IMG/VR virus record: IMGVR_UViG_3300020442_000013
Span: 37,245 to 101,244 of that record
DNA length: 64,000 nucleotides
Strand: one strand, 5' to 3'
DNA from: a virus
The stretch's first letter is position 1. Every line of letters begins with the position of its first letter. The notes below the pieces were generated by a model, which was given only the letters and a program-made list of their open reading frames with translations, searched no databases and was not told where the DNA came from. The translations under genes and the position numbers were made by a program. Of the stretch, positions 2,909 to 62,579 are shown piece by piece.

Positions 2909-3056
2909 TAAGTACCTTTTCTAATTCTTTTAATATATCTATATATTGATATACCACCCTCTTCTTCTCCTCATCTGAAACATTGCTATAAACAACTTCC
3001 ATCATTTTAGGAAATTCTTCTGTAAGTCTTTTGTTTATTATAGCTTCTGATACCAT
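2898..3056 (-). CDS. Small charged protein preceding gp41
   Basis: A 52-codon frame read by eye, starting MVSEAIINKR and ending LEKVLNGN. It overlaps the 3' end of the gene before it (stop at 3038) by 19 nt and the start of gp41 by 11 nt. This tight packing is typical of a translated gene. The product is Lys/Glu-rich and probably helical, with no membrane segment. No family was recognised. Its position suggests a helicase-associated or coupling role, which is inference. Confidence 0.6.
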   Translation of the reverse strand: MVSEAIINKRLTEEFPKMMEVVYSNVSDEEKKRVVYQYIDILKELEKVLNGN

Positions 3057-3066
3057 CGTTTGTCAA
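3037..3066 (-). promoter_or_regulatory. Sigma70-like promoter upstream of gp41
   Basis: TTGACA (3061-3066) and TATAAT (3037-3042) on the minus strand, spaced 18 nt. Both hexamers are perfect, but the site lies in the end of one coding region and the start of the next, and the spacer is 1 nt longer than optimal. Confidence 0.45.
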
Positions 3067-43992: not shown

Positions 43993-44011
43993 TATTTATC
44001 GTCGATAAATA
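43993..44011. promoter_or_regulatory. Palindromic bidirectional late promoter
   Basis: TATTTATC, 3 nt, GATAAATA: one perfect late octamer on each strand. The minus copy serves gp13 (27 nt upstream) and the plus copy gp14 (5 nt before the ATG). An exact, symmetric arrangement. Confidence 0.75.
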
Positions 44012-44016
44012 CTTGT

Positions 44017-45177
44017 ATGCCGAGACTTAGTTTATATAAACCAGAACGTGGTAATGATTTTGAATTTTTAGACAAGCAAATACTTGAAATGTTCACTGTT
44101 GGTGGTACTGATATGTTTGTTCACAAGTATCTAGGTCCTAAAAATGCTGATGAAGATACTGCTACAGCAGATCAACCTAAATATGATGCTGTAAAACATA
44201 CTAATATACAGGACTTATTATTCCTAGAAAATAGAGATAGGAAATATGATAAGGATGTATACACAATGCGAGGTATCTACAACGTACAAGATGTAGACTT
44301 TGATCTAAGCCAGTTTGGACTATTTTTACAAAATGATACCCTTATGTTAACAATACACATAAGAAGTAGTGTTAAAACATTAGGTCGTAAAATTATGCCA
44401 GGCGATGTTATAGAATTACCGCATTTACGAGATGAATACGCACAAAATGATCTAGCAGTTGCGTTAAAAAGATTTTATGTAGTTGAAGATGTAAATCGTG
44501 CAAGTGAAGGATTTACTCAAACATGGTATCCACATTTGTATAGATTAAAACTTAAACAAATTTACGACAGTCAAGAATATAAAGATATATTAGATTTACC
44601 AGCAGAAGAAGATGCACCTGGAGGTAGCACATTAAGAGATCTACTATCTACCTATGAAAAAGAGATGCAAATTAATAATGCTGTAGTAAAACAAGCGGAA
44701 GCAGATGCGGCAAAAAGCGGTTACAATACAAGTCATTTGTTTACATTACAAACGGACGATAAAGGTGAAACAGAACTAGTTACTGTTGATTCTAGTGATA
44801 TAGATGTTTCAGATGGCATTAGTGTTGATAAAATTATGGTTCCGCCGGATAAAAACGGATACCAAGGATATTTATTAGGCGATGGTTTACCACCTAATGG
44901 AGAAGTATTTGGTCACGGAATTAGTTTTCCTGTTGAACCATCAACTCATGATTACTTTCTAAGAACAGACTTTTTACCAAACAGATTGTTTAAGTATGAT
45001 GGTAATCGTTGGGTAAAACTAGAAGATGGAGTTAGGATGACACTTTCACAAACAGATGATAAGAAAACACTTAAAGGTGGCTTTGTTAACAATACTAAAA
45101 CAGACAACATTGGTGGCGAAACTGTTCAAGAAAGACAAAGTCTTTCTAAAGCTCTTAAAGCGAAGCCAGATAATTAA
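44017..45177 (+). CDS. 14: Neck protein gp14
   Basis: Tail-head connector, 386 aa; conserved N-terminal half (LDKQILEMFTVGGTDMFVHKYLGP, LHLRDEY-like segment). First gene of the plus-strand late unit. The late octamer ends 5 nt before the ATG and there is no ribosome site. C-terminal third (PNRLFKYDGNRWVKLEDGVRM) looks like a fibre-binding or carbohydrate-type beta domain not present in T4. Confidence 0.88.
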   Translation: MPRLSLYKPERGNDFEFLDKQILEMFTVGGTDMFVHKYLGPKNADEDTATADQPKYDAVKHTNIQDLLFLENRDRKYDKDVYTMRGIYNVQDVDFDLSQFGLFLQNDTLMLTIHIRSSVKTLGRKIMPGDVIELPHLRDEYAQNDLAVALKRFYVVEDVNRASEGFTQTWYPHLYRLKLKQIYDSQEYKDILDLPAEEDAPGGSTLRDLLSTYEKEMQINNAVVKQAEADAAKSGYNTSHLFTLQTDDKGETELVTVDSSDIDVSDGISVDKIMVPPDKNGYQGYLLGDGLPPNGEVFGHGISFPVEPSTHDYFLRTDFLPNRLFKYDGNRWVKLEDGVRMTLSQTDDKKTLKGGFVNNTKTDNIGGETVQERQSLSKALKAKPDN

Positions 45178-45187
45178 GGTATAACAA

Positions 45188-46714
45188 ATGCAACATTTTT
45201 ATGACGGACAAATAAGAAGATACTTAACTCAGATGATTAGACTTATGAGTAATTTTTCTTATGAGGACGGTGATAAAAAATTAACACAGATACCTGTTAT
45301 GTACGGTGATATTACTAGGCAAGTTGGTAGTATTATACGTGAAAATTCTGAAAACAAAATACCTAGTGCTCCTAGAATGGGAGTGTATGTCACTGGTTTA
45401 GAAATGGATACAGCAAGACTAGCTGATGCAAGTTTTATCAGTAAGGTCAACGTGCGAGAAAGAGCATATGATGCACAAGGGCAAGAATATCTTAACGAGT
45501 CTGGAAAAAATTATACTGTAGAAAGGCTTATGCCGACACCATACAACCTTTCTGTAAATTGTGATATCTGGTCAACAAACACAGATCAAAAATTACAAAT
45601 ACTCGAACAAATACTAATGTTATTCAATCCAAGTTTTGAAATTCAAACCACGGACAACTACATTGATTGGACTAGTCTTAGTGTAGTAAATTTAGAAGGT
45701 ATTACGTTTAGTAGTAGATCAATACCAACAGGGACTGAATCTGAAATTGATGTTTGTACATTACAATTTCAAACACCAATATATATTTCACCACCAGTAA
45801 AAGTAAAAAGACTTGGAGTTATTACAAATATCATAACAAGTATATTTGACGAAACTGGTAACATTAATAATATCAATCCAGATAAAATATTTGATAGCTT
45901 CGGTAATCAAATACAAAGCGAGCTATCTTCAGACTTTGATAGTCAAGATCAAATTATGCCTGAATTAAACACAGATCATACAGAAGTACACGGCAGAGTA
46001 GGAGTATTACCTACTGGAGAAATAGAACATATTACACAGACTGGTAAAGTTAAAAGAGGTACTGCTGATGCTGTATATGGTATATCTCATCAAGGTCATG
46101 ATTTACTTGTGCTTAACAATACTTTACAATTAATTAACAAAGGCATTGTTGGAAACACGTTATGGACACATTATTTAAATGAGGTACCTGGTAATTTTAG
46201 AACAGGGCTTTCACAGATTAGATTAGCTAGAAAAGATCTTGCAAATGATATAGTAGGAACTTTTGCTATTGATCCTAACGATGAGACTAAAGCAGTTGTT
46301 AATTGGGACACTGATACTTTACCTAGCGATACTATTATTACAAGTGCGTTACAAGAAAAAGCAAAAATAGACTACATTCTAGATCCTACAAAAACAAATC
46401 CAACAAGTCTTAAAACAGCTGGAAACAGAATTTTACTTTTAGGTGCTATAGGTTCTACGTTAAACGTCGACGGTGCAGATGCATGGAAAAATGCAGATGG
46501 CACTGACTTCATTGCTAAAGAAAATGATATTTGTGAATGGGATGGAACTAAATGGGTTATAGTATTTGACGCCTCCAAAAAGACAAATCAATTAACAGAT
46601 GTTACATATGTAACCAATTTAAACACAGGTATTCAATATAAATGGGATACTTTTGAATGGGTTCTTTCATTTGAAGGCGAATATCCAGACGGCACCTGGC
46701 GTATCGTATTTTAA
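45188..46714 (+). CDS. 15: Tail sheath stabiliser gp15, extended
   Basis: Tail completion/sheath terminator. 508 aa against 272 in T4. The N-terminal half (MQHFYDGQIRRYLTQMIRLMSNF, VYVTGLEMDTARL, NYTVERLMPTPYNL) is the gp15 core. The C-terminal 240 residues are an extra beta-rich region ending FEWVLSFEGEYPDGTWRIVF, like the ends of some baseplate proteins. Immediately after gp14. Confidence 0.85.
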   Translation: MQHFYDGQIRRYLTQMIRLMSNFSYEDGDKKLTQIPVMYGDITRQVGSIIRENSENKIPSAPRMGVYVTGLEMDTARLADASFISKVNVRERAYDAQGQEYLNESGKNYTVERLMPTPYNLSVNCDIWSTNTDQKLQILEQILMLFNPSFEIQTTDNYIDWTSLSVVNLEGITFSSRSIPTGTESEIDVCTLQFQTPIYISPPVKVKRLGVITNIITSIFDETGNINNINPDKIFDSFGNQIQSELSSDFDSQDQIMPELNTDHTEVHGRVGVLPTGEIEHITQTGKVKRGTADAVYGISHQGHDLLVLNNTLQLINKGIVGNTLWTHYLNEVPGNFRTGLSQIRLARKDLANDIVGTFAIDPNDETKAVVNWDTDTLPSDTIITSALQEKAKIDYILDPTKTNPTSLKTAGNRILLLGAIGSTLNVDGADAWKNADGTDFIAKENDICEWDGTKWVIVFDASKKTNQLTDVTYVTNLNTGIQYKWDTFEWVLSFEGEYPDGTWRIVF

Positions 46715-46727
46715 GATAATTACTTAT

Positions 46728-47165
46728 ATGAATAATATTGTTTGTAGTGGTGCTCTCTTCTATACTTTAGACACCCATAGATTTTTATTTTTATTTAGAT
46801 CAAATGGAAAAAAAGCAGGATTATGGGGTTTAGTTGGAGGAACAAATGAAGGAGTAGAAACTCCTTTTGAAGGGCTACAAAGAGAAATTAAAGAAGAAAT
46901 CGGTAGCTTACCTGAGATAAAAAAAGTGCTTCCTTTAGAATCTTTTGTATCAAATGACGCACATTTTCATTTCCATACATATCTCTGTGTAATAAAAAAT
47001 GAATTTATACCAACACTAAACAACGAACACAGCGGTTATGCTTGGTGTAGTTTTAGAAACTGGCCTAAACCTTTACACTTAGGGTTACGTAATACCTTAC
47101 AAAGCAAAGCTAATCTAACTAAACTAGAAACTGTATTCGAAACAATTAATTTACTTGACAAGTAA
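46728..47165 (+). CDS. Nudix hydrolase
   Basis: 145 aa. The Nudix box G-x5-E-x7-REIKEEIG is complete (GGTNEGVETPFEGLQREIKEEIG, about 40-62). Nudix enzymes hydrolyse nucleoside diphosphates linked to X, for example ADP-sugars. It starts 13 nt after gp15 at the ATG at 46728. Its place before HldE suggests it acts on ADP-heptose or a related donor, or cleans damaged nucleotides. Confidence 0.88.
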   Translation: MNNIVCSGALFYTLDTHRFLFLFRSNGKKAGLWGLVGGTNEGVETPFEGLQREIKEEIGSLPEIKKVLPLESFVSNDAHFHFHTYLCVIKNEFIPTLNNEHSGYAWCSFRNWPKPLHLGLRNTLQSKANLTKLETVFETINLLDK

Positions 47166-47189
47166 GTTTAGAGAAAGTAAAATGAATTT

Positions 47190-48440
47190 ATGATAAGAGT
47201 ATACGGTGACATCATGTTAGATAGATGGATACTAGGAGATGCCACACGGATAAGTCCTGAAGCTCCTGTACCTGTTTTATTAGAACAAGAACAAAAATAT
47301 AGTATAGGTGGAGCAGGAAACTTAGCTCTTAATATACAATCTATCAATGGAGATGTATACTTATATGGAAATGTTGGACAAGATAAAGAAGGATTTAAAC
47401 TACTAGAATTACTTGGAGCAACAAAATTAAACACAAATATTGCTAGTGATCATGATATTACTACAACCAAATCTAGATTAGTTGGACAACAAGGACAACA
47501 CATTGTACGTTGGGACAAAGAGAAAAAATACACAGGCCAAGATGCATTTGAAAGATTAGTATCTTCTATTGAAGCACTTGACATTATCTGTATAAGTGAT
47601 TATAACAAAGGCACAGTTACAGAAGCTACAATAGAAAGAGTTTTAACCAAAACAAATAGAATTCTTGTTGATCCAAAACAAAATTATAAAATTTATCGCG
47701 GTGCGTTATTAGTCAAACCAAATATGAAAGAGTATAATGAATGGAACGGACCTTATAATCCTGAAACAGCATTAGATTTTATGAAAAAAAATAATTGGAG
47801 ATGGTTGGTTGTAACTGACGGTGCAAACGGTATGCATGTTCTAAACGATAGCGGAGAATATAAAAGATTTATAGAACCGGTAGCAGAAGTTGCAGACGTT
47901 ACTGGAGCAGGCGATACTGTACTAGCAATAATTGCACACGGTATAGAAAAAGGTATGGGAATATTTGATGCTTGTAAGATAGCTTGTTATGGTGCTGCAA
48001 GGATAGTTGAAAAAAGAGGTGTGGCAATAGTAAACCATTTAGATCTAAATCAAGGAATAGTTTGGACTAATGGTGTATTTGATATATTGCACACAGGACA
48101 TTTAGAATTACTTAGATATGCAAGCACACTTGGTAAAAAACTTATTGTTGGCATAAACAGTGATGAAAGCACAAAAAAACTTAAAGGAAATGATAGACCA
48201 ATCAATAATCAATCTGTTAGAAAACAAAATTTACAAACTTTGCCTTGGGTAGATGAAGTAGTAATTTTCAATCAAGAAACACCTAAAGAAATAATTAGTA
48301 AGACAAAACCTAATATAATAGTAAAAGGCGGAGACTATACAGTTGAGACTGTAGTAGGTAATGAGATTGCTAATGTAGTAATTTTTCCTACTGTAAAAGG
48401 ACATAGTACAACTGAAATTATAGAGAAGATGAAAAAATGA
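47190..48440 (+). CDS. hldE: Bifunctional heptose kinase/adenylyltransferase HldE
   Basis: 416 aa, both HldE domains in order. Residues 1-285 are a PfkB-type kinase with the VTGAGDT anion hole and catalytic Asp near 240, which phosphorylates heptose-7-phosphate. Residues 292-416 are the adenylyltransferase with GVFDILHTGH (HxGH) and GINSDES. Full length is about 477 in E. coli. It makes ADP-D-glycero-beta-D-manno-heptose with GmhB between the steps. It overlaps the next gene at ATGA. Confidence 0.93.
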   Translation: MIRVYGDIMLDRWILGDATRISPEAPVPVLLEQEQKYSIGGAGNLALNIQSINGDVYLYGNVGQDKEGFKLLELLGATKLNTNIASDHDITTTKSRLVGQQGQHIVRWDKEKKYTGQDAFERLVSSIEALDIICISDYNKGTVTEATIERVLTKTNRILVDPKQNYKIYRGALLVKPNMKEYNEWNGPYNPETALDFMKKNNWRWLVVTDGANGMHVLNDSGEYKRFIEPVAEVADVTGAGDTVLAIIAHGIEKGMGIFDACKIACYGAARIVEKRGVAIVNHLDLNQGIVWTNGVFDILHTGHLELLRYASTLGKKLIVGINSDESTKKLKGNDRPINNQSVRKQNLQTLPWVDEVVIFNQETPKEIISKTKPNIIVKGGDYTVETVVGNEIANVVIFPTVKGHSTTEIIEKMKK

Positions 48441-49072
48441 AAGCTGAAACACTTGCGGAAAATATTGTAAAAGGATCTGGCGGTCATGGACTTAAGAAAA
48501 ATCAATTAATAAAAATTTTTAACAATATAGAAAATTTAGAAGATTTTGCTTACACTTTAAAAAAAGTTTTAGAACACGGTGGAAAAGATTATCTTACTAC
48601 GCAGGTTTTTCAAACTGATATTCCTAGTTTCGATACCTTTACAAAATGGTTTCATATAGATGAGAAATACGATAACAGTTGGGGATTTGATAAAAAAGAT
48701 GCAGGTTGTTATATGTATGGATTATACAAAGAGAAACCACCAACTAGTGTTGATATTTTAGATCCTGGTGTAATTTACATAGGAGAAAGCAGAGCGACTA
48801 CAAGAAATTGTATGTTAGGTAGACGCACAGACTTTAAAGGTACTGTACGTAATGATAGATTATCGCCTTATGGTTGTGGAACAGCTTTTAAAGAAAAGTT
48901 TGGCAGAGACAATATTAATTTTGTTTATCAATGTTATTTGCCTATGCATAACAGTCTTGTAAAAGAAGTAGAAATGCAGATGCTTTGCATGTATTACAAA
49001 AAGTATAATACAATTCCTGCGTGTAACCCGGAAAATGATTTACGTAGGGTAAAATTAAGAATGGAAAATTAA
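48437..49072 (+). CDS. GIY-YIG-like nuclease-fold protein
   Basis: 211 aa. GCYMYGLYKE and VIYIGESRATTR (about 95-125), then an Arg, then a late Glu in EVEMQML and Asn in PACN, give the order GIY-YIG-R-E-N of this nuclease family. The spacing is wider than in classic members. It is coupled to both HldE (4-nt overlap) and the next membrane gene. Possibly a homing-type or stray gene inside the sugar operon. Confidence 0.55.
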   Translation: MKAETLAENIVKGSGGHGLKKNQLIKIFNNIENLEDFAYTLKKVLEHGGKDYLTTQVFQTDIPSFDTFTKWFHIDEKYDNSWGFDKKDAGCYMYGLYKEKPPTSVDILDPGVIYIGESRATTRNCMLGRRTDFKGTVRNDRLSPYGCGTAFKEKFGRDNINFVYQCYLPMHNSLVKEVEMQMLCMYYKKYNTIPACNPENDLRRVKLRMEN

Positions 49073-49413
49073 TGGATCATTTAAGAAAGTATATTGGACT
49101 TTACATGACTGCAATGATATTGCCGTTCATGTTTGGATACGGAGTAAGCGAAGAACATCCAATATGGGTATGGTGGCTAATATTTGTTATTGTAATATGG
49201 AAAGTTCCGCCTTATAGTATTGGTGATCGATTCTGGGGTAATGTTGCACGATTCTATGAATGGCTGTTTCAAGTACCTATGAGTTGGATAAAGAAATCAC
49301 CAAAATGGTTTCAATATACTTTTGTGATTGTAATGATTATATTGTTTGAAGAATTTATATTTTCTCCGTTAGGATATACTATGTACCCTTGGAGAATGGA
49401 TTTTGGAAGTTAG
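49072..49413 (+). CDS. Membrane protein with two or three helices
   Basis: 113 aa, with helices around 8-25 (MTAMILPFMFGYG), 30-46 (WVWWLIFVIVIW) and 82-100. No family identified. Its ATG overlaps the stop of the GIY-YIG-like gene, in the heptose operon. Confidence 0.6.
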   Translation: MDHLRKYIGLYMTAMILPFMFGYGVSEEHPIWVWWLIFVIVIWKVPPYSIGDRFWGNVARFYEWLFQVPMSWIKKSPKWFQYTFVIVMIILFEEFIFSPLGYTMYPWRMDFGS

Positions 49414-49423
49414 GAAAGTAAGG

Positions 49424-49834
49424 ATGAATATATTTAAAAAAATTAATCAATCTATACCAGATTTTTGTTTGAGTCATTGGCTATTTAGAATACCTTTAGC
49501 TATAGTTTTTATACAACAAGGGTTATCTAAATTACCTGTGACTATTGAGGAGGCAAGTTCTTTTGATTTACCATACTTAGTATGGTGGTTTGTAGCTTAT
49601 GGTGAACTTGGTGGCGGACTAGGTTTAATTGCAGGCGGTGTAGTAGCACGTTGGTGGGAAGAGATTGGAGATCTTGTTACACGGTTTAGCGGAATTACTA
49701 TATGTTCAATTATGACAGGAGTAATATGGATTGGTCAACCTGAAAACGTAATGGATGTATTATTATATGATAATCTACATGTATTTTTATGGGTAGGCGG
49801 ATTATATTTTGCTCTAAGAGGAAACAGACGATAA
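49424..49834 (+). CDS. DoxX-like membrane protein
   Basis: 136 aa with four hydrophobic helices. WLFRIPLAIVFIQQGLSKLP (about 15-34) is the DoxX family's first helix with a conserved loop after it, followed by GELGGGLGLIAGG. DoxX-like proteins occur with redox and thiol enzymes, but the function here is unknown. The start at 49424 is chosen because AGGA lies 8 nt upstream. Confidence 0.7.
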   Translation: MNIFKKINQSIPDFCLSHWLFRIPLAIVFIQQGLSKLPVTIEEASSFDLPYLVWWFVAYGELGGGLGLIAGGVVARWWEEIGDLVTRFSGITICSIMTGVIWIGQPENVMDVLLYDNLHVFLWVGGLYFALRGNRR

Positions 49835-50652
49835 TGAAAATATTAGTGACTGGATACAAAGGATTTATAGGACAGAATATGTCTCATTACCTAATGAGCA
49901 AAGGTCACGAAGTAGAAGGTTGGGACTTTATGGAAAATGCTGTGCCTGATCCAAGCAGTTATGATTGGGTAATACATCTTGGTGCAATAAGCGATACAAC
50001 ATGCACAGATGTAGAACAAATAATGGCACAAAACTTTGAAAACAGTATGAGACTTTTACAAACCTGTGATACAATGGGTACTAATATACAATATGCTTCT
50101 AGTGCAAGTGTATATGGTCCTACAACACACTTTAAAGAAGACGGAAAACTTTTACCACAGTCTCCTTACGCTTGGAGCAAATATCTGTTTGATAGATTTG
50201 TAAAACAGCATATTGACGACTTTAAAGTAATTGTGCAAGGATTTAGATACTTTAATGTGTATGGTCCTTATGAAGATCATAAAGGTGATCAAGCAAGTCC
50301 TTACACAAAATTTACTAAACAAGCTAAAGAAAATAAAACTATAAAGGTTTTTGAAAATAGCGAAAATTACAAAAGAGATTTTGTATGTGTAGATGATGTT
50401 TGTCAAATTCATGAAAAGATGTTTGATGTAGATAAGACTGATATTTGGAATGTAGGAACAGGCAAGCCAGAAAGTTTTGATGCTGTAGCCAGAACAATAG
50501 CCGATAAGCATGGCGCCGAGATTAAATATATACCTATGCCAGATAACTTAAAAAGTCAATATCAAAAATATACTTGTGCAGATTTAACAAAATTAAATTC
50601 AGTAGTAAACCATAAATGGATAGATATTAAGGATTATATAAATGGAAGTTGA
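49834..50652 (+). CDS. hldD: ADP-heptose 6-epimerase HldD-like
   Basis: 272 aa extended short-chain dehydrogenase. N-terminal GYKGFIGQN (7-15) binds NADP, SSASVYG and YAWSK give the catalytic Tyr-x3-Lys, and FRYFNVYGP and KYTCADLTKL match E. coli HldD in the heptose-pocket and tail. It converts ADP-D-glycero-D-manno-heptose to the L-glycero form. ATG shares TAATG with the DoxX gene. A related sugar-nucleotide epimerase is the alternative; the HldE and GmhB neighbours favour HldD. Confidence 0.88.
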   Translation: MKILVTGYKGFIGQNMSHYLMSKGHEVEGWDFMENAVPDPSSYDWVIHLGAISDTTCTDVEQIMAQNFENSMRLLQTCDTMGTNIQYASSASVYGPTTHFKEDGKLLPQSPYAWSKYLFDRFVKQHIDDFKVIVQGFRYFNVYGPYEDHKGDQASPYTKFTKQAKENKTIKVFENSENYKRDFVCVDDVCQIHEKMFDVDKTDIWNVGTGKPESFDAVARTIADKHGAEIKYIPMPDNLKSQYQKYTCADLTKLNSVVNHKWIDIKDYINGS

Positions 50653-51058
50653 AAGACTTAGTGGTGTTGTACAAAAAGGTTGGGGATACGAACTAATTTG
50701 GGCAACTAATGACAAGTACTGTGGTAAAATTATGGTATTTGAAAAGAAGGGTAATAAATTTTCTATGCATTTTCATCGTGAAAAAGATGAAACATGGTTT
50801 GTAAATAATGGTAAATTCAAAATAAGATGGATTGATACAAAAACTGCTACATTGCATGAGCAAGAATTAATTGAAGGCCAAACTTGGCATAATCCACCGT
50901 TACAACCTCATCAACTAGAATCACTAGAAGATGGTAGTAGCATAACCGAAGTCAGTACACCTGACTCAGTAGAAGATAATTATAGAATTATTCCCGGAGA
51001 TAGTCAAAGTGAACGAACAACAGATACCAGTGACGGAAGTACCGCAACCGATAATTAG
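50642..51058 (+). CDS. Cupin, sugar isomerase-like
   Basis: 138 aa single cupin. YELIWATNDKYCGK, then MHFHREKDETWFV (metal His/Glu) and HNPPLQPHQLESLED complete the fold as in type II mannose-6-phosphate isomerases. It overlaps both HldD (11 nt) and GmhB (50 nt), so it is part of the sugar operon. It could supply a sugar-phosphate isomerisation step, perhaps one taken by GmhA in bacteria, but the substrate is unknown. Confidence 0.75.
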   Translation: MEVERLSGVVQKGWGYELIWATNDKYCGKIMVFEKKGNKFSMHFHREKDETWFVNNGKFKIRWIDTKTATLHEQELIEGQTWHNPPLQPHQLESLEDGSSITEVSTPDSVEDNYRIIPGDSQSERTTDTSDGSTATDN

Positions 51059-51665
51059 ATGGTCCTCGGACATTCCAAACTTAATCCAAAGTAACGACAG
51101 AAATAAAAAAATTGTTATAGGATTAGATAGAGATGGTGTTATAAATGTAGACCTAGGAACATATGTCACTAAGCCAGAAGATTTTGAACCTATTCCTGGT
51201 AGCTTAGAAGCAGTCGCTACAATCAAAAGATTAGGATTTCAAGTTGTAATTATAACCAATCAAGGTGGTATTGCAAAAGGCATAATGACACAAGCTGATG
51301 TTAACCGAGTACATGATCGTATGTTTAAATTGCTAGGTGAAGCTGGTTGTGCTTTTATTGAAGCATTATACTACAGTGAAACTAATAGAAAAGACGACAA
51401 ATTTGCAAAACCAAATATAGGTATGTTTAAAAGATGTCAAGATGAACATCCTGATATTAGATTTTCTAGAGGATATTATGTTGGAGATAAAATTTCCGAT
51501 TTAAAAGCCGCAATGAAAATAGGAGCAAAACCTATTTTGGTTCGTACTGGTTATGGTAAAGAAACTGAAAAACTTCTAAATAGATTTACCTATAAAAAAA
51601 TAAAAGCTAAAACAAAAGTATATGATGATTTAAAAAGTTTTGTCGATACTTTAGATCAAGCCTGA
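51009..51665 (+). CDS. gmhB: HAD phosphatase, GmhB-like
   Basis: 218 aa from a GTG start at 51009 (GGAG 9 nt upstream), overlapping the cupin gene by 50 nt. DRDGVIN (about 40-46) holds the nucleophile Asp and general-acid Asp, TNQGGIAKG the second motif, and YYVGDKISDLKAA the third. It fits the HisB-N/GmhB subfamily, which removes the 7-phosphate of heptose-1,7-bisphosphate. The zinc cysteines of E. coli GmhB are absent, so another HAD role is possible. Confidence 0.8.
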   Translation: MNEQQIPVTEVPQPIIRWSSDIPNLIQSNDRNKKIVIGLDRDGVINVDLGTYVTKPEDFEPIPGSLEAVATIKRLGFQVVIITNQGGIAKGIMTQADVNRVHDRMFKLLGEAGCAFIEALYYSETNRKDDKFAKPNIGMFKRCQDEHPDIRFSRGYYVGDKISDLKAAMKIGAKPILVRTGYGKETEKLLNRFTYKKIKAKTKVYDDLKSFVDTLDQA

Positions 51666-54600: not shown

Positions 54601-57600
54601 TTTCGTAGATTCCGGTTGAGTCTTGTGATGACCTAGTAACATTAAATAATGCACTAGTGCCGCTTGGTGATCTATTACTAGAATTTACAGAAGTAGCACC
54701 AAATGCTCCCTGTGATGCAGTTCCTGATATACTCACAGAAGTCACTTCACCTCTTGCAGTTGAATCATCTGATACAACACCAGTAATTGTAATTGTTAAA
54801 TCATTAGCAGGTGATAAACCTGCTAAGTCTGTGCCCAGAATAGTAAATGTTTGATTCAAACCGTAATTAGAACCGCCATCACCTGGACTATCAAAGTCAA
54901 TACTATAAACTCCTCCAGATGTGCTAATGTCTGCAATAAAGCCTGATCCTATTAATTTGGTTCCTGCTTGATTAGTATACTGTGCGCCATTTACTGCTGT
55001 TCCAGATGGTGAAAATCCTGTTATAGCACCGCTACCTAAATCTATACCTGTGATTTTTACTACACAATCGTTAGCAGGAGTTGAACCCCCTAAAATGTTT
55101 CCTGGTACTGTAATTGTTTCCCCACTCATAAAACTATCGCCGCCAACTAAATTTACCAAACCGTATGTTGTGCCATTTGTTCTTACTGTGAAACTTGCAT
55201 TTTGTCCTGTACCTGCTCCTACTGTTTGTACCACAAAGGTTAAATTAGCAGCGCCACCACCGCCTAAATCACTGTCTTGAATTGTGATTGTATCGCCTTG
55301 TGAATGGCCAGACCCTATTGTCTTTATATCCAAATTTGATACAGCACCTGAAGCATTGATAGTAATATCAAAAGTTCCTACAACACCCGATCCACTAGAT
55401 GTACCTGACACATTGAGATACGTGCCTGCTGTTCGTGATGCATCTCCAGCTGAAAAGTTACCAACAAGCAGATGTGATCCTGGTGCGGACATAATCATTT
55501 CAGTGCTGTCGTCTGTGATGGCAAAATCATTAACTGCATCAGGTGCTGTACCTGTTTGAGTAGTACCTGTAATTCCACCAGTACCATTCACACTAGAAAC
55601 CGTTATAACAAGGTCATGTGTACCATCAATTCCATTTGTTCCAAATGTTGAACCTGGAATAATTATTCTGTCATTCACTATATAATCAGCACCAGGTGCA
55701 GTAATTGTTACTGCTTGGAACGTGTTATTAGTAAAATCAACAGTAAAGTTTGCGCCACCACCTTGACCACCATTAGTTGTTGGTGTTAAACCGGTATAGG
55801 TTGCAGTACCATCAAAAGGTGTGCCTGACACTATAGATAAAGATGTAACTCCTCCTACAGCATCAACACTTTCTACTTTTAATATTAAATCGTTGTTAGG
55901 ACTTGTACCACTAAGATTATTACCTACGATTTTTACGACATCAGCTACTTCATAATTTTGTCCTGGATTAGTTATGTTACCTACGCTGTATGCAGTTCCG
56001 TTAGAACTTATTTCTACCTGTAAGTTTGCTCCTGATGGAGTATAATTATTTGCTTGTACTCCACTGTACGTAGCTGTGTTGGCTGTCAAAGGGGCTGTTA
56101 ATGCACTTGATAAAGTAATTACATTTGTGCCTTGATCTACTGTTTCAACATACGTTGCAACACCGTCTCCTCTATCAAAAGCCAAATTTGGTACTACACC
56201 AGTTGCATCTAGTAGTGTAATAGATTGTGCACCTATTAGTGTATCTGTAGCAATGTCGGGAGTTAAAAACGAACCTCCGCCTGCTGAATTATCTATAACT
56301 GCTGTAGTCTGTGAACCTGTTGGTATGGATGCATTTACTAAAGGAGCACCAATAGTTGGTGATGTTCCGTCATATGGTATACGTGTTTCACCTTGTGGAA
56401 CTATTACTTCTGCTGTTAATGTTCCGGATGCACCCTGTGATACCACTGTAAATCCTTGAATAGCCACTGCGGCTTGTGGACTACCAATAGCTGCACCTGT
56501 GTAAAATCCTGCTTTCCTTAATTGTGTATAATTTGTATAAAGAACTTCTCCGTTAGTACTTCCTACTTTTGCTTTAGCAAAGTATGTAAAACTAGTTGTG
56601 CTTGGTACTGTGTATATTATAAAAGAGCCTTCAGCTCTTGCCGCTCCTGCAACGGAGTTTTCTAATGCTTTGATAGTAATAGGATCGCCTTCAATAAAAC
56701 CGTGCGGCGAAACTGTTGTAACTGTAATTAAACTTTGACCTACACCTGAAGTACCTGCACTAGCATCTGTTACAACTGATTGTACATCTGTTGTTGTTCC
56801 AGGAACTTCATATATACTAGGATACCCTCTAAGTGTTCCTATAGCTGACCATTTAGTAGGTTGTAGTCCATATTCAAAGTCAGCATCAAGCATAGCCAAT
56901 GGTGATGCATGACGCATACGTTCAATAGCATCAACACCAAAATCATAAGGGCGAACAGCAAGTTCTGGAGCTTCTTTGAATATTTGCAAATCATCATTTG
57001 CAGTATGTGCTGACGTGTCTTTGTTAAGCGTTAATGTCGTAACAGCATCTGTAATTTGTAAAAATTTTGGAAAATCTGTATCTGTTGAATATTGGTCTTG
57101 TGAAATTGTACCGCCAAGTTCGTTGTTTGAAAAATTAAATATTACTTCATTTGTAGTTGAATTTGTAATTAATAGTAAATCTTCTAGCTCGCATCTGCCT
57201 TGAAATTTAATTGTACCTGCACCTGTAGGAACATGCGTAGGTAAAGCAGATAAGCCTGTAGTAATTACATTTATAATTATGTTAGATAATTCTGTTATTC
57301 GAGCAGTGACTCCTGACTCAGTTGTTTTACTGTTATCAATCACTTGACTAGATGCACTTAAACTTGTATGAGCAGTATTTGTTAAAATAAAATTGTTAAT
57401 TATGTTTCTTATTTCTGTATGATAATTTATTTCAGCTTGTCTTGTACCTGAGATTTGTGCAGTGGCTCCTTCCCAAAAGAATCTTGCATTTTTGCTTGTT
57501 TCTTGATTGCCACCATATCTTAAATCATGTAGGTATGCATCTATAATGAGTCCTACATCTTTTTGTGTTTTTGTAATATCAAAAGTATAGCCTGAAAACC

Positions 57601-57760
57601 CAGTTGCTCCAGCATTTACTTGGGCTGTTATGTATGCCGTAGCTTCTGCTTGAAGATATGCTTTGTTGCTGTTTAACAAACTATAACCATTAGGGTACAG
57701 GTTAGCAAGTCTACTTATACCTGGTTTAAATACGTAATCTTTTATTTGTGTCTTTGCCAT
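51656..57760 (-). CDS. Giant fibre-like virion protein
   Basis: 2034 aa, a Thr/Ser/Gly/Asn-rich beta protein with no catalytic motif. A central region (about 580-1090) holds six imperfect repeats with a G-(Y)-x-x-D-x-(V/I)-x-(V/I)-x-G-x-x-L-x-G...NDL pattern (copies near 600, 690, 818, 874, 960, 1060), typical of bacterial or tail-tip adhesins. The extreme C-terminus (NTPLGGRGTFPNGPDVLAINIY and LLKWGEAQA) is like the ends of marine T4-like structural proteins. Likely a tail fibre or adhesin arm. The convergent GmhB stop overlaps its end by 10 nt. Confidence 0.78.
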   Translation of the reverse strand: MAKTQIKDYVFKPGISRLANLYPNGYSLLNSNKAYLQAEATAYITAQVNAGATGFSGYTFDITKTQKDVGLIIDAYLHDLRYGGNQETSKNARFFWEGATAQISGTRQAEINYHTEIRNIINNFILTNTAHTSLSASSQVIDNSKTTESGVTARITELSNIIINVITTGLSALPTHVPTGAGTIKFQGRCELEDLLLITNSTTNEVIFNFSNNELGGTISQDQYSTDTDFPKFLQITDAVTTLTLNKDTSAHTANDDLQIFKEAPELAVRPYDFGVDAIERMRHASPLAMLDADFEYGLQPTKWSAIGTLRGYPSIYEVPGTTTDVQSVVTDASAGTSGVGQSLITVTTVSPHGFIEGDPITIKALENSVAGAARAEGSFIIYTVPSTTSFTYFAKAKVGSTNGEVLYTNYTQLRKAGFYTGAAIGSPQAAVAIQGFTVVSQGASGTLTAEVIVPQGETRIPYDGTSPTIGAPLVNASIPTGSQTTAVIDNSAGGGSFLTPDIATDTLIGAQSITLLDATGVVPNLAFDRGDGVATYVETVDQGTNVITLSSALTAPLTANTATYSGVQANNYTPSGANLQVEISSNGTAYSVGNITNPGQNYEVADVVKIVGNNLSGTSPNNDLILKVESVDAVGGVTSLSIVSGTPFDGTATYTGLTPTTNGGQGGGANFTVDFTNNTFQAVTITAPGADYIVNDRIIIPGSTFGTNGIDGTHDLVITVSSVNGTGGITGTTQTGTAPDAVNDFAITDDSTEMIMSAPGSHLLVGNFSAGDASRTAGTYLNVSGTSSGSGVVGTFDITINASGAVSNLDIKTIGSGHSQGDTITIQDSDLGGGGAANLTFVVQTVGAGTGQNASFTVRTNGTTYGLVNLVGGDSFMSGETITVPGNILGGSTPANDCVVKITGIDLGSGAITGFSPSGTAVNGAQYTNQAGTKLIGSGFIADISTSGGVYSIDFDSPGDGGSNYGLNQTFTILGTDLAGLSPANDLTITITGVVSDDSTARGEVTSVSISGTASQGAFGATSVNSSNRSPSGTSALFNVTRSSQDSTGIYESISYNNGAGYVTGDKVVVPGNLLGGATPANDLTIVSTNGNFASFDVVSGQPAQADILNLLCTFTMTEATTSQIAASTSISFEALATLEIDFPNAHGLVPGSSFIVTTQSDDGSNNHSLADGTFIATNIPAVDKIRYQARAAGTIDTSASDIIAIVYPKPDSFFIHRPFDGGVQLGTGGPQHGAQAIRQSKKYIRYQSGKGIMYTTGALFAPSYDLQSVTADGVEINSLITVVTDDHDHGVQIGGVIRLLGIETEGYNSGPGNGNDYQPYEDYEVVQVTDERTFKVRAKRRLGSTTPDLGFNAQMSVVTWHGATVRAGVFDDQNGIFWEYDGVNINVVQRTGTFQLAGTIAMLADANLITGTNTKFTKQLKAGDRVIIKGMTHVVTNVTDDTNCTVTPDFRGVNDITGAKMMYVTDRKVKQQDFNIDKLDGTGKSKYNMDPAKMQMIGIQYSWYGAGFIDYMVRGADGNFVYCHRMRNSNVNTEAFMRSGNLPVRYEVTNEGPPGQLSAAIDATQTTIPLKDASFFPKSGTVYINNEIIQYDGISGNNLQNCVRGTTFANFQAGAQRTYSAGTATTHVINTGVVLISNTITPLISHWGSAFITDGGFDEDRGYIFSYPETNITVSTIKQTAFLLRLAPSVSNAIIGDLGERELLNRAQLLLNGIEVTSEAGDGKGIIVEGVINPQNYPINPVDVGWNGLAGLAQGGQPSFAQVASGTSVNWSTGVSSTTASATALATTTAAIDSGIYTSYNNSRYVYIGAADYRNTFGDNSLDHVLGRNISGTRVQAGTVINGGYISPTGTYGYFYLSQRISGGNIAQNQTDHFTITLNNPQTNSNKALFDQTSWVNAGAANGTAATGGSVTWPAGSLVSSVALKTWAGTTYYEVIFNNAFTGTLANGSGTVEFTFEQPPFALPGETVFSFIAVPGERSTLDLKDLKEITNTPLGGRGTFPNGPDVLAINIYKIAGSDTNANILLKWGEAQA
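54478..56023 (-). repeat. Six tandem 90-residue-class repeats within the giant protein
   Basis: The six copies of the NDL-ending pattern, about 56 to 128 residues apart, lie in this stretch. At DNA level they are degenerate, so they have diverged for a long time. Confidence 0.6.
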
Positions 57761-57763
57761 CTG

Positions 57764-58612
57764 TTATGTTCCAAGTGCTATAGCCAAAGCTGATACTGTT
57801 TCATCTACATATTTTTTATTTGTTGCTGATGTAGCTGTAGTTGGTGTATTGGCTACTGTTGCTGATGTAAAAGCCGCTGTTGACGGTGTAGTCGCTCCTA
57901 TTGTTGTGTTGTTAATTGTACTATTATTTATTGGTCCTACAATATTTCCGCTTGCACTATCTACTAATAATGTAGCATTATTTGCATATACAGATCCAGT
58001 TAAGTCTCCTGTAACACCACCTAATGCATTTAGAGTGCCACCAAAGTTTGACTGCAATCCTACACCTAAACCTCCTGCTACTATCAATGCGCCATTGTTA
58101 GTTGCATTACTATCATTTGTGCTTTTTACAGTCACAGTAGTAAATGATCCTATAGGATCCTCTACACTAATGTTTCCTGAAATAGTGCCTGCTAAATTTC
58201 TGTATGTAATATTATCTGGCGCTGTAGAAGAAACTGCAAACACTAATCTGCCTGAAGTTTTTCCTAATGCTGTTGCCCCTATTCCACCGTCTGAATGTGT
58301 AAGTCCTGTGTGATATTGATCTGTACCGTTATAAAAATAAAATGCGTTAGTTAGTGAAGATAAATCAATTATATATGATTCGCCTCTATACATTGTAATA
58401 TTTGCACTTTCTCCGCCAGGAGTCCAAATATAAGCTGTGTTTGAACCATTTTCTGTAATTGTAAAATTTGCTGGAGTAGCTAAATCAAAAGTTTCTGATC
58501 CCTGTGTTTCAACAAGCGATCTAGCAGTTATGTTACCTTGTGCATCAACAGTAAATCCAGTACTTTTAAATCCGTATGCTGATTCTAACGCTTTATTTGT
58601 AACTGTTGGCAT
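57764..58612 (-). CDS. Fibre-like virion protein
   Basis: 282 aa. An N-terminal anchor region (MPTVTNKALESAYGF) with a beta-sandwich domain (NFTITENGSNTAYIW...RGESYIIDLSS, about 50-130) and a collagen-free Asn/Thr/Gly repeat shaft (about 155-240: KSTNDSNATNNGALIVAGGL, NNSTINNTTIGATT). Followed by a short C-terminal knob (KKYVDETVSALAIAL). It starts 3 nt from the stop of the gene upstream and has a late promoter. Confidence 0.7.
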   Translation of the reverse strand: MPTVTNKALESAYGFKSTGFTVDAQGNITARSLVETQGSETFDLATPANFTITENGSNTAYIWTPGGESANITMYRGESYIIDLSSLTNAFYFYNGTDQYHTGLTHSDGGIGATALGKTSGRLVFAVSSTAPDNITYRNLAGTISGNISVEDPIGSFTTVTVKSTNDSNATNNGALIVAGGLGVGLQSNFGGTLNALGGVTGDLTGSVYANNATLLVDSASGNIVGPINNSTINNTTIGATTPSTAAFTSATVANTPTTATSATNKKYVDETVSALAIALGT

Positions 58613-58639
58613 ATTTCAATAATCCTTTTGGCTTTAACA

Positions 58640-58647
58640 TATTTATC
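58640..58647 (-). promoter_or_regulatory. Late promoter (GATAAATA)
   Basis: Late octamer on the minus strand, 27 nt before the ATG at 58612, with AAAGGA between. Confidence 0.65.
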
Positions 58648-58660
58648 CATAATCTAAATG

Positions 58661-59056
58661 TTAGATAACTTGAGGATTTTGATTCTGATAATACTGGGCA
58701 GTATAAATTATTTTAGCACCCTCTTTTCCTGTGGTTGGATTTACTATTATATCTACGTAACTTTGATTTACAGTAGCTGATATGTCTATTAAATTGGTGC
58801 CTAAATTATTTCTTGCATATACAATCACACTAGCTTCATCTAAACTTGCAGTTACCAATACTTTTATTATTTCTTTGTTATCTTTATCAAAATCTGCTGA
58901 TATTGTATACTCAGCACTTGAAAAGTCAGCTACATGAAATCTATCTATAAGAGTATCTGTATACGCTTGCTTCCAGGGGCCATTATGAGATATTGTGCCT
59001 GTTAGAAGCACACTATCTTTTAATCCTTTGCTAAAAAATTTATCTAATTTAAACAT
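58661..59056 (-). CDS. Small virion structural protein
   Basis: 131 aa, beta-rich with no cysteines or catalytic motif (DKDNKEIIKVLVTASLDEASVIVYARNN). I recall similar proteins near fibre genes of marine T4-like phages. The late promoter is 7 nt before the ATG with no ribosome site. Confidence 0.6.
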   Translation of the reverse strand: MFKLDKFFSKGLKDSVLLTGTISHNGPWKQAYTDTLIDRFHVADFSSAEYTISADFDKDNKEIIKVLVTASLDEASVIVYARNNLGTNLIDISATVNQSYVDIIVNPTTGKEGAKIIYTAQYYQNQNPQVI

Positions 59057-59063
59057 TATACAA

Positions 59064-59071
59064 TATTTATT
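59064..59071 (-). promoter_or_regulatory. Late promoter (AATAAATA), 7 nt before ATG
   Basis: Late-type octamer 7 nt before the ATG at 59056; it overlaps the carbamoyltransferase stop codon. No ribosome site. Confidence 0.5.
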
Positions 59072-60884
59072 CGTTTTCTATTTTAAATAAATGCTTGTAT
59101 TCTGGTAGATATAAGTATTCTATTTTGCTTTCTTTGAGTGTTCTAAGTGCATCATCTAGTGTTTCTACTAATGGTTCTCCACCTAGGTTAAAACTGGTAT
59201 TAAATATAATTGAACAGCCTGTTTGTTTTTTAAATTCTTTAATTAAATCATAATAGTGTTTATTTTGTTCTTCGCTTACAGTTTGTATTCTACACGTACC
59301 ATCTACATGTATAATTGCAGGAATTTTTTCTTCTACTCCTGGCTTGCAGTTTACAGCATACATCATAGTTGGTGAATTCTTCATGCCTCGTAAGTCAAAC
59401 CATTCGTGTACATCTTCTTCTAAGATTGTTCCTGCAAAAGGTCTAAAGTATTCTCTTCTCTTTACTTCGTTAACATGATCTTTGCCTTTTGGGTCTGTCG
59501 GATCATATAACAAAGATCTATTTCCTAATGCTCTTGGTCCATTTTCGCTTTGTCCTTGAAAAATTGCAACAATATTTTTTTCAGTAATTAATTTTACAAC
59601 ATCTTCATGTGTGGCATTTTCTGTTACGTCAGCCTCATAAGTTTTTGCTATGGATCTTAATTGTTGCAATGTAAAATCATACTTTGGTCCTAAATATAAA
59701 TTGTCACCTTTACGTCCAGAAACTTCTGTGCTTTGTGTTAGTTCATGATACATTATCAATGCTGCACCCATTGCTGTACCAGCATCATTACTTACAGGTT
59801 CTACATAAAGTTCGATATCAAGGTCTTCTAAATCTTTCAAATAGTGATAATTTGCTACACAATTTAAACCATAACCTCCACTTAATACTACCTTCTTTTT
59901 ACCTGTCTGTGTAACTGCTTTTCTAATCAAATCACTTGCTTGTTGTTGTGTTTGGATTTGACATGCATAAGCCATGTCTCTCCTGTTTGGCATCAATGTT
60001 AAGTCTACTCTATCGTAGTCATCAGCTTTGCCATTGTCTACTCCGTCAGGAGTTAGTTCTTCGTATAATCCATCATTTACTAATGCCGCATTTGGATATG
60101 TAGGAACAATCAAATTTCTATTAGACAGCGGTATTTTTCCTAGGTCGTCAAATAAAGCAGGAATTTTTTTATTCTCTTTTCCATAAGGAAATAAGCCCAT
60201 AGTTTTGCCAGCTTCAATTGCACTAAAGCCACAGTATTGTGTTACTGCTTCATATACTTTTGTAATACCTGCTCTATCAGAAATTGCAATTTCATATTCA
60301 GTACCATCAGCATTTTTTTCTGTCAAGAATGAAGTTGTGTTAGGACCTCTTGTGCCTAAGTGCTTGTAGACAACACCAAAATCAGCAGGATAGTTACAAT
60401 TAAAAACTGTTTCAGTTTCAAAACCATATGTTGATTCTCTGTTTATCTCCATCGGAATAAATGTACCAGCTCCGTCTATCACTACAGCCACAGCTTCAGT
60501 AAATCCGCTTCTATAAAAAGCACATCCTGCATGTAACTTGTGATGTTCCATTGCTACATCTATTACTTGAGGGTGCTTACCTCTTGAATGCCTATCAATC
60601 AAACCAAGTTTTCTACACATACCAGTATATACATCATCACCTGAAAATTCTAACCTGCCAGCTGATTCTGTAAGTGGTTGTGTATGGGCTACTACTAGAT
60701 AATCTAATTTGTCTGTATAATCTAAAATTTTTACTATAGAAGCTAATGGTCCACCATCATACTTGCTCCTACTAAGTCTTTCCTCCTCTATAGAAAAAAC
60801 AACTTCGCCATCCTTTAATAAACATACTCCACTATTATGTCCTCTTGCAATTCCTGCAATCCATTTTGAATTATTTTTACTCAT
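59067..60884 (-). CDS. O-carbamoyltransferase (NodU/CmcH/TobZ family), full length
   Basis: 605 aa with both domains. The Kae1-like N-terminal part has EEERLSRSKYD, HHKLHAGCAFY (H114, H118 region) and VVIDGAGTF. The C-terminal YrdC-like part (from about 400) has NGPRALGNRSLLYDP, which binds carbamoyl-adenylate. It makes carbamoyl-AMP from carbamoyl phosphate and moves the carbamoyl group to a sugar or other hydroxyl. It overlaps the GT9 gene by 8 nt. In Pseudomonas, WapO of this family carbamoylates LPS heptose, a tempting parallel. Confidence 0.93.
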   Translation of the reverse strand: MSKNNSKWIAGIARGHNSGVCLLKDGEVVFSIEEERLSRSKYDGGPLASIVKILDYTDKLDYLVVAHTQPLTESAGRLEFSGDDVYTGMCRKLGLIDRHSRGKHPQVIDVAMEHHKLHAGCAFYRSGFTEAVAVVIDGAGTFIPMEINRESTYGFETETVFNCNYPADFGVVYKHLGTRGPNTTSFLTEKNADGTEYEIAISDRAGITKVYEAVTQYCGFSAIEAGKTMGLFPYGKENKKIPALFDDLGKIPLSNRNLIVPTYPNAALVNDGLYEELTPDGVDNGKADDYDRVDLTLMPNRRDMAYACQIQTQQQASDLIRKAVTQTGKKKVVLSGGYGLNCVANYHYLKDLEDLDIELYVEPVSNDAGTAMGAALIMYHELTQSTEVSGRKGDNLYLGPKYDFTLQQLRSIAKTYEADVTENATHEDVVKLITEKNIVAIFQGQSENGPRALGNRSLLYDPTDPKGKDHVNEVKRREYFRPFAGTILEEDVHEWFDLRGMKNSPTMMYAVNCKPGVEEKIPAIIHVDGTCRIQTVSEEQNKHYYDLIKEFKKQTGCSIIFNTSFNLGGEPLVETLDDALRTLKESKIEYLYLPEYKHLFKIENE

Positions 60885-61827
60885 CGTCTTCCTTTGGTTC
60901 TGGTTTACCTAGTACTCTGTCTATAACGTAATCGACTATTTCTGGACTCATAGTCATTAAGTGTTCGTTATGCCTTGACGTAGTTTCGTCAGGCATTATT
61001 CTTATAGGATCATAAACTCTATCGGTCATTCCTAAATCAACAATATTAAAGTAATCACAGTTTGGATAAGAAACATTGATAGGAAATGTTGGACCTAATA
61101 CTACAGTAGAAGGTGTATCTACCATATATGCCAAATGTTGTCCTACACTATCACAACCAAGAAAATGATTTGCATATTTTATTGCAGCTGTCCAGTTCCT
61201 TAGTGCAACCTGTTCAGGCATAGCTACATCTTCTTTAAATTTATCTTTGCTAAAATCAAATCCCATTTCAGCCATTGTGATTACTGCAAAGTCGTTTTCT
61301 TGCAATTTTCTAATGAGTGATTTAAGGTCTTTGAATTCAATACTTCTACCAGTGTTATCAACAAACGATCCATCTACATGTTGTATTGCCCTTCCAAAAG
61401 GTTGTATAATAATTACTTTATCTTTTTTTAATCTATCTTTTACTTGATTGATAATTTGTCTACCAGTTAACATTTCTTCTTTGGAAAGAAACATTCTTGG
61501 TTTGTCTAATTCTCTTAAACCTTTGTTATTAATAGCAATATCATAACCTTGAGCAAGACTAGCTTTTTGGTTGTAGTATTCCCAAATTCTATATGGTTCA
61601 GGAGAAATAATATCTCTATCTTTGAGTTTTTCTTGAAATAAATTTTTGTGCCAATTGTCATAAGCACGATGATCTAGATCTGGATGACCTTTAAATGCAT
61701 CAGTGCCGCCTTCACATACGATTATAAAATCATCGTCATTTGATTCTTTAGCATATAATTCGAAAGCTGGTATTGAACTTACTACTCTTCCGTAGCCACC
61801 GTTCACAAAAAAAGCCTTTGATCTCAT
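60877..61827 (-). CDS. GT9-like (heptosyltransferase) glycosyltransferase
   Basis: 316 aa GT-B protein. NGGYGRVVSSIPAFE (9-23) is the GT9 N-terminal loop and CDSVGQHLAYMVDTPSTVVLGPT (about 236-258) matches the ADP-heptose donor-site motif of LPS heptosyltransferases WaaC, WaaF and WaaQ. The gap between is FGRAIQHVDGS. The ribosome site is AAGGA. Next to it are the carbamoyltransferase and fibre genes, and the ADP-heptose operon is 10 kb away. Donor identity is inference. Confidence 0.8.
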   Translation of the reverse strand: MRSKAFFVNGGYGRVVSSIPAFELYAKESNDDDFIIVCEGGTDAFKGHPDLDHRAYDNWHKNLFQEKLKDRDIISPEPYRIWEYYNQKASLAQGYDIAINNKGLRELDKPRMFLSKEEMLTGRQIINQVKDRLKKDKVIIIQPFGRAIQHVDGSFVDNTGRSIEFKDLKSLIRKLQENDFAVITMAEMGFDFSKDKFKEDVAMPEQVALRNWTAAIKYANHFLGCDSVGQHLAYMVDTPSTVVLGPTFPINVSYPNCDYFNIVDLGMTDRVYDPIRIMPDETTSRHNEHLMTMSPEIVDYVIDRVLGKPEPKEDDE

Positions 61828-61913: not shown

Positions 61914-62579
61914 TTATTCCCAGGTAAAACTAATTTGTTTATGTGGAATTTTCCAAGCATCAATACTTGCATAGTTACTTCTCACTGTCTTTAACCATGC
62001 TGACATTGCTTGCATTTCTGTTTTTTGTGCCGCAGTAAAGTTCTCTGGGCGATCTGCTAAAGCCTCATCAATCCGTGCTGCTTCTGCATCATATCCATCA
62101 AATAAAGATTCTTTGTCAATAGGATGTTCCTGATAACCTGGCATTGTAAATTTAGTGCCATCATATTTCATTGCACTAGCTCCATTATGAATTGACTGCA
62201 TAAAGTTCTGCGTTCTATATTCGTATTCATAATCTGGGTCATCACCTGGTGTTTCAAACTTGTAATCAGGTATACCTCCTGTTTCATCTTTGGCTGGTAT
62301 AGTGTCATCGCCCTGCATCAATGCTATTGCTTCAGGGTGATCATTTGCATCTACCAAGTAAAATTTATGACCTTCATGTACATGATTTGGCAAATCGTCC
62401 TCTAGTTCTTTTTTAACGTCATGTGAACCTTCAATGGAAAATACTTCTCCTGTAGCTTCAACTACGCTAATTATATGGTAACGTAGTCCAGTCCATGTAA
62501 CATCTACTGTTTTTCCCTCGGACACAGATGGGTTCCATGGTTCATTTGGATACGTGTATGTAAAAGTTTTTGTAATCAT
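61914..62579 (-). CDS. Conserved phage protein, probable virion component
   Basis: 221 aa, acidic, with no enzyme motif seen. The N-terminal 90 residues look like beta strands (TYTYPNEPWNPSVSEGKTVD, RYHIISVVEATG) and the C-terminal half is helical (PENFTAAQKTEMQAMSAWLK). A late promoter is 34 nt upstream, so it is probably late and structural. May be a chaperone for a nearby fibre. Confidence 0.55.
   Translation of the reverse strand: MITKTFTYTYPNEPWNPSVSEGKTVDVTWTGLRYHIISVVEATGEVFSIEGSHDVKKELEDDLPNHVHEGHKFYLVDANDHPEAIALMQGDDTIPAKDETGGIPDYKFETPGDDPDYEYEYRTQNFMQSIHNGASAMKYDGTKFTMPGYQEHPIDKESLFDGYDAEAARIDEALADRPENFTAAQKTEMQAMSAWLKTVRSNYASIDAWKIPHKQISFTWE

Follow-up and report, generated by a model that had tools for sequence, protein, structure and literature searches.

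What the lipopolysaccharide (LPS) genes of marine T4-like phages are for has been an open question ever since the sequencing of P-SSM2. A change of the host surface by the P-SSM2 LPS genes was proposed earlier (PMC2984593), pelagimyophages were found to carry rfaE (PMC7029224), a cyanophage with heptose-LPS genes was reported (PMC7378029), and a wastewater huge phage was described with a heptosyltransferase I (PMC10747093). Glycans on mycobacteriophage virions are likewise known, as cited in PMC12619734. We analysed a 64,000-nucleotide stretch of IMG/VR virus record IMGVR_UViG_3300020442_000013 (positions 37,245 to 101,244; hereafter the window), the final 64 kb of a 101,244-base record that is a fragment of a large marine T4-like myovirus. 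The window carries genes for an ADP-heptose pathway, a GT9-like glycosyltransferase and an O-carbamoyltransferase. With a confidence close to even, we propose that they form a late two-part sugar module, in which one block would supply ADP-heptose and the GT9/carbamoyltransferase pair would transfer the sugar to a virion protein. The original prediction held that nothing like this was described for a phage; that statement fell, since T4-like cyanophages carry the same genes and heptose-related phage genes were already published. We found no paper joining GT9, carbamoyltransferase and ADP-heptose genes as one module, in a literature search made without most subscription papers.

All genes named in the original prediction were found where it had placed them and are well outside the range of chance. 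The module, its structural neighbours and the upstream late element are arranged as follows (window coordinates; protein lengths in amino acids, aa):

44004..44011, plus strand: GATAAATA, a late-promoter-like element ahead of gp14; a divergent copy at 44000-43993 lies ahead of gp13
44017..45177, plus strand: gp14-position virion structural protein, a neck protein by position (phrog_11591, 1e-93)
45188..46714, plus strand: gp15, tail sheath stabiliser (PF16724, 2e-28)
47190..48440, plus strand: HldE, heptose-7-phosphate kinase and heptose-1-phosphate adenylyltransferase (PRK11316, 6e-102)
49834..50652, plus strand: HldD, ADP-heptose 6-epimerase (TIGR02197, 1e-70)
50642..51058, plus strand: cupin, candidate aldose-ketose isomerase replacing GmhA (best PDB profile match 2y0o, 1.4e-5)
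51009..51665, plus strand: GmhB-like HAD phosphatase (PRK08942, 9e-42)
51656..57760, minus strand: 2034-aa fibre-like virion protein (phrog_5838, virion structural, 2e-246; phrog_4527, short tail fibre, 2e-12)
59067..60884, minus strand: O-carbamoyltransferase, NodU/TobZ-like (PF16861, 1e-59; PF02543, 6e-24)
60877..61827, minus strand: GT9-fold, heptosyltransferase-like glycosyltransferase, phrog_8954 (AlphaFold2 model and Foldseek)

The identities proposed for HldE, HldD and GmhB were upheld, each protein being closest to its own heptose family and retaining key catalytic residues. Besides PRK11316, HldE matched the NCBIfam models rfaE_dom_I (1e-70) and rfaE_dom_II (2e-44), and its best PDB matches were a heptose kinase (4e84, 7e-38) and a nucleotidyltransferase (5x9q, 1e-24). 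HldD, whose start is better placed at 49834 than at 49789, scored far above the next unrelated family (galE, 2e-19) and had E. coli HldD as its best PDB match (2e-47), and GmhB matched 4pnh by profile (2e-30). Comparison with the E. coli K-12 proteins revealed an equivalent of kinase D264 together with the GAGD and HxGH motifs in HldE, equivalents of S116, Y140, K144 and K178 in HldD, and equivalents of D11, D13, D136 and K137 in GmhB. The roles of these residues in the E. coli enzymes are general knowledge. All three proteins scored under the NCBI curated cut-offs, as expected of divergent phage copies. A kinase-domain swap was observed between the window (47190-48050) and the sister phage G001 (L186): the HldE kinase domains shared 30% identity, neighbouring genes were otherwise 60-96% identical (adenylyltransferase domain 81%, Nudix 94%), and the kinase position in G001 held a cyanophage-type kinase. 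Elsewhere in the window (21143-21916, minus strand), an HldE-C-like nucleotidyltransferase fused to a mannose-6-phosphate-isomerase-type cupin was conserved in relatives.

By sequence, the GT9-like call for the transferase had little support (Pfam E 0.29); the predicted fold bore it out. A PDB profile search with the GT9 sequence returned no match, so the fold was used instead. The AlphaFold2 model, built from 39 aligned sequences, had a mean predicted local distance difference test (pLDDT) score of 91.4, and Foldseek matched it in the PDB to a Veillonella GT9 protein (3tov, 7e-12), TibC (3e-9), WaaF (5e-9) and WaaC (3e-8). In an hhalign comparison with E. coli WaaC/F/Q/U (89.7%, E 1.8e-6), VDTGLSHLTAAL of WaaC was paired with CDSVGQHLAYMV of the phage GT9. 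Judged from this model, the predicted structure of the phage transferase is a GT-B fold of the GT9 type. The carbamoyltransferase combines a Kae1-like N-terminal domain (PF02543) with a YrdC-like C-terminal domain (PF16861), as in the NodU/TobZ family, and its PDB profile matches included a carbamoyltransferase (7xb6, 7e-77) and TobZ (3ven, 1e-57). The two genes overlap on the minus strand, as predicted. That the GT9 family came from cells was considered and rejected: 10 of 11 matches in metagenome-assembled genomes were GT9 and carbamoyltransferase pairs, most of them beside fibre or phage pathway genes, and the eleventh was a short motif only. On L221 (JAHFPP010000006.1) and L220, contigs binned as woesearchaeote and gammaproteobacterium, GT9, carbamoyltransferase and GmhB-like genes occurred together. 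A second carbamoyltransferase in the window (3038-4665, minus strand) has the N-terminal domain only and adjoins a PP-loop ATPase-like gene.

Linkage was assessed in 80 GT9 loci from IMG/VR, which served for the adjacency count, in 50 whole records and in cyanophages; the 50 records were gathered by searching with the cassette's own genes, so their tallies describe linkage and not prevalence. The carbamoyltransferase gene lay downstream of the GT9 gene on the same strand in 66 of the 80 loci, all but five of these pairs overlapping or at most 16 bases apart. The full layout recurred in dozens of metagenomic contigs, with gp14, gp15, Nudix, kinase, adenylyltransferase, HldD, cupin and GmhB genes in one half and fibre, 282-aa, 131-aa, carbamoyltransferase and GT9 genes on the opposite strand; fibre genes were the usual neighbours of the cassette. 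Adenylyltransferase and HldD co-occurred in the same 31 of the 50 records. The pathway was contiguous with the pair in L085 and nearby in L013. In the cyanophages P-SSM2, S-CAM1, S-SSM7 and Sf-FS3, the pair leads on into genes for an adenylyltransferase, a kinase, a HAD protein and a cupin; inserted genes interrupt the S-SSM7 and Sf-FS3 cassettes. An epimerase gene on the other strand comes next in P-SSM2, S-CAM1 and Sf-FS3 and was not seen in the S-SSM7 stretch read. The adjacency count and the contiguity in cyanophages and L085 support the earlier claim that the GT9, carbamoyltransferase and ADP-heptose genes belong together. Inside the Sf-FS3 (L229) and S-SSM7 (L228) cassettes we also observed prolyl-4-hydroxylase-like 2-oxoglutarate oxygenases and a second carbamoyltransferase, with a tryptophan halogenase in S-SSM7.

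Late control of the pathway genes, also claimed originally, is predicted from the promoter-like sequences. The element NATAAATA occurred at 18 sites in the window, 13 of them no more than 70 bases ahead of a gene start; the sheath gene, gp13 and gp14 are among these genes. The divergent pair of elements between gp13 and gp14 was conserved, its gp14-side copy being present in 32 of 35 distinct loci. From gp14 through GmhB the largest intergenic gap was 24 bases. On the opposite strand, the 221-aa gene upstream of GT9 has a late element ahead of it, and none was found directly ahead of GT9 itself. T4-type late transcription calls for a TATAAATA-like element before late genes, and such elements were found in the window. 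Exact TATAAATA was rejected as the late promoter because it was not enriched (4 seen against 11 expected); the degenerate GATAAATA form precedes genes. Scans of the window for sigma-70 promoters and terminators gave no more matches than chance. The family identities, catalytic residues, gene linkage and promoter-like element were read from sequence or structure prediction.

From these data we infer which sugar is donated, in what order the two transfers take place and what the acceptor is. The supply block (HldE, HldD, the GmhB-like HAD and probably the cupin) would make ADP-L-glycero-beta-D-manno-heptose, starting from host heptose-7-phosphate, or from sedoheptulose-7-phosphate if the cupin is an isomerase. 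The GT9-fold enzyme would then place heptose on the acceptor and the O-carbamoyltransferase would carbamoylate it. Late-promoter-like elements lie upstream of both blocks, whose products would be expected to appear together with those of the tail genes. We think a fibre or tail protein of the phage the likeliest acceptor, so that the virion would carry carbamoyl-heptose. A virion acceptor is favoured because of the late operon, the fibre neighbours, the presence of TibC, a protein heptosyltransferase, among the fold matches, and the case of Sf-FS3. This isolate, which carries the module, infects Synechococcus WH8102, whose LPS was reported to be without heptose or Kdo (3-deoxy-D-manno-octulosonic acid; PMC4515613). 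Topping up host core heptose could therefore not be the purpose in Sf-FS3, and the sugar would be foreign there.

The same chemistry could instead act on a glycan of the host surface, LPS or O-chain, where late carbamoyl-heptose would hide receptors from superinfecting phages or released progeny. We regard this as a credible alternative that falls well below an even chance. It agrees with published proposals for the P-SSM2 LPS genes (PMC2984593) and the pelagimyophage glycosyltransferases (PMC7029224), and in Pseudomonas LPS, WapO is known to carbamoylate heptose (PMC8005017). WaaF and WaaC are among the GT9 fold matches, and the window holds a KdsB-like CMP-Kdo synthetase and a glycosyltransferase-like open reading frame (ORF). 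However, the late operon and the position at the fibre locus count against it, KdsB was not found in relatives G002 and G005, and the WH8102 LPS offers no heptose/Kdo core to extend, although its glucose chain could be newly decorated. A virion acceptor stands slightly ahead of a host glycan.

Several observations weigh against an ADP-heptose module that decorates the virion. The GmhB zinc ligands C92, H94, C107 and C109 of E. coli K-12 are all replaced, and the substrate of a GmhB without its zinc loop may therefore differ. The GT9 donor contacts are partly matched, with the D/H motif kept and a different loop at WaaC K192. The fibre neighbours would be equally expected from a hypervariable region without any relation to the acceptor, and the KdsB-like gene leans towards LPS. 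The adenylyltransferase was absent from 17 of 45 GT9-bearing records, some of them fragments; in L033, L034, L038 and L044, Nudix directly abuts the fibre gene, the supply block is gone, and GT9 and carbamoyltransferase are kept. The pair can therefore work without a phage-made donor, and from this gene content we infer that the pair may be the working module and the pathway genes a donor supply for some hosts only.

A donor other than ADP-heptose is unlikely in our estimate; in that case another sugar phosphate would be the substrate of the kinase, HAD, nucleotidyltransferase, cupin and epimerase, and the GT9-fold enzyme would use the nucleotide sugar made from it. The scores under the curated cut-offs and the lost zinc ligands would suit such a donor, as would the three HAD types found in the slot (GmhB in this phage, an EcbF-BcbF-like protein in cyanophages and an NT5C-like one in G005). 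Against it, heptose enzymes are by far the best matches of HldD, the HldE kinase and the adenylyltransferase, whose catalytic residues are intact, and the transferase has a heptosyltransferase fold. That ADP-heptose serves other host or phage needs or signals to bystander cells, with the GT9 and carbamoyltransferase unrelated to it, is very improbable: some relatives do have the pair without the pathway, but linkage and contiguity are strong across several phage lineages, and ADP-heptose sensing is known for animal cells, which are not hosts of this phage.

Returning to ADP-heptose supply, the set was originally described as complete bar GmhA. No SIS-type GmhA (SIS_2) was found in the record itself, the 50 relatives or 5 cyanophage records, as claimed, but a conserved cupin could do the GmhA step. 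The cupin was present in 31 of the 31 records with the cassette adenylyltransferase and in four more among the 50. The alignment with its top PDB profile match, the D-lyxose ketol-isomerase 2y0o, pairs the metal ligands and the invariant Lys preceding Glu, and Pfam Lyx_isomer weakly matched 21 of 24 cupin members. H45, K48 and H90 are invariant, and H43 and E50 nearly so. The model (pLDDT 90.7) has a cupin fold with a 3-His/1-Glu metal site common to many other cupins, and its Foldseek matches mix isomerases with quercetinase and oxalate decarboxylase, so that isomerases were not separated from oxygenases or decarboxylases. The GmhA reaction involves the manno/lyxo stereochemistry on which D-lyxose isomerase also works. 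We tentatively suggest that the cupin is an isomerase performing the GmhA step, which, if true, would give a well-studied pathway a new enzyme at its first committed step. More doubtful is the whole chain, a complete route from sedoheptulose-7-phosphate in which this small cupin ketol-isomerase, related to D-lyxose/D-mannose isomerase, would replace GmhA and which would end in carbamoyl-heptose on virion proteins in phages with heptose-less hosts. The cyanophage "phosphoheptose isomerase" was rejected as the missing GmhA, being a mini-HAD with a DxDGT motif (TIGR01689 capsule phosphatase, 9e-5); as a phosphatase it fills the GmhB slot. The misannotation is repeated in cyanophage records, for example NC_006883.2 PSSM2_311 and NC_020837.1 SXBG_00218.

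The remaining genes of the locus are:

46728..47165, plus strand: Nudix hydrolase, position between gp15 and cassette kept (PF00293, 6e-14)
48437..49072, plus strand: 211-aa ORF, possibly a GIY-YIG-like endonuclease by eye only (no Pfam match)
49072..49413, plus strand: 113-aa hydrophobic ORF (no Pfam match)
49403..49834, plus strand: DoxX-family membrane protein (PF07681, 2e-8)
57764..58612, minus strand: 282-aa fibre-locus protein (late element at 58647)
58661..59056, minus strand: 131-aa protein adjoining the carbamoyltransferase, position conserved (late element at 59071)
61914..62579, minus strand: 221-aa fibre-locus protein upstream of GT9 (late element at 62621)

The original prediction placed the pathway genes after gp14 and gp15 on one strand. 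The strand and order were confirmed, but the Nudix gene intervenes between gp15 and HldE; gp15 is supported by PF16724, and the name gp14, for a member of a virion structural family, rests on its position beside gp15. Three unrelated-looking ORFs separate HldE from HldD, and the cupin separates HldD from GmhB. The spacing between the blocks, given as 10 kb, is actually about 7.4 kb from the end of GmhB to the nearer end of the carbamoyltransferase gene. Collagen-like repeats, sought in the fibre proteins as a hint of glycosylation, were not found there. The KdsB-like gene lies at 10478-11170 on the minus strand and is 78% identical in the sister phage; the glycosyltransferase-like ORF is also within the window. 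By gp14, the nearest isolates were an Agrobacterium jumbo phage (38% identity) and a Sinorhizobium jumbo phage (36%), and a 5-aminolevulinate synthase (565 bits against a curated cut-off of 339) was observed outside the window (G000, L002:3612-4901). Together these two observations suggest an alphaproteobacterial host.

New here are the joint reading of genes known piecemeal, the likely foreignness of the sugar to some hosts, the candidate GmhA replacement, the reassignment of the cyanophage "phosphoheptose isomerase" to HAD phosphatases, which corrects a repeated misannotation, and the relatives with the pair and an empty pathway slot. A single conserved late module for which a specific product, carbamoylated heptose, is predicted would turn a vague annotation into a searchable mass, and it is present in an isolate, Sf-FS3, whose host LPS is reportedly without heptose.

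Mycobacteriophage virion glycosylation uses different enzymes and sugars. The principle in common with the module proposed here is phage-encoded decoration of virion proteins (as cited in PMC12619734). Pseudomonas WapO, which 7-O-carbamoylates LPS heptose, is likened to the phage enzyme by carbamoyltransferase family and heptose-linked setting. The GT9 heptosyltransferases WaaC, WaaF and TibC share the fold and a D..G.H-type motif near the C-terminus, whereas the phage GT9 has about 11% identity to them, an altered donor loop and a family almost confined to phage-like contigs. Three of the four enzymes of the bacterial ADP-heptose pathway (GmhA-HldE-GmhB-HldD) are common to both by family and catalytic residues; in contrast, the phage is without SIS-type GmhA, its GmhB is without the zinc loop, and the cupin is always there. 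Closest is the T4-like cyanophage "LPS gene" cassette (P-SSM2 PSSM2_307-313, S-CAM1, S-SSM7 and Sf-FS3), which, as here, has the GT9-fold gene followed by the carbamoyltransferase and pathway genes near tail-fibre genes. Unlike that cassette, the present locus has kinase and adenylyltransferase fused as one HldE, a GmhB-like phosphatase in place of the mini-HAD, and two convergent blocks flanking the fibre gene.

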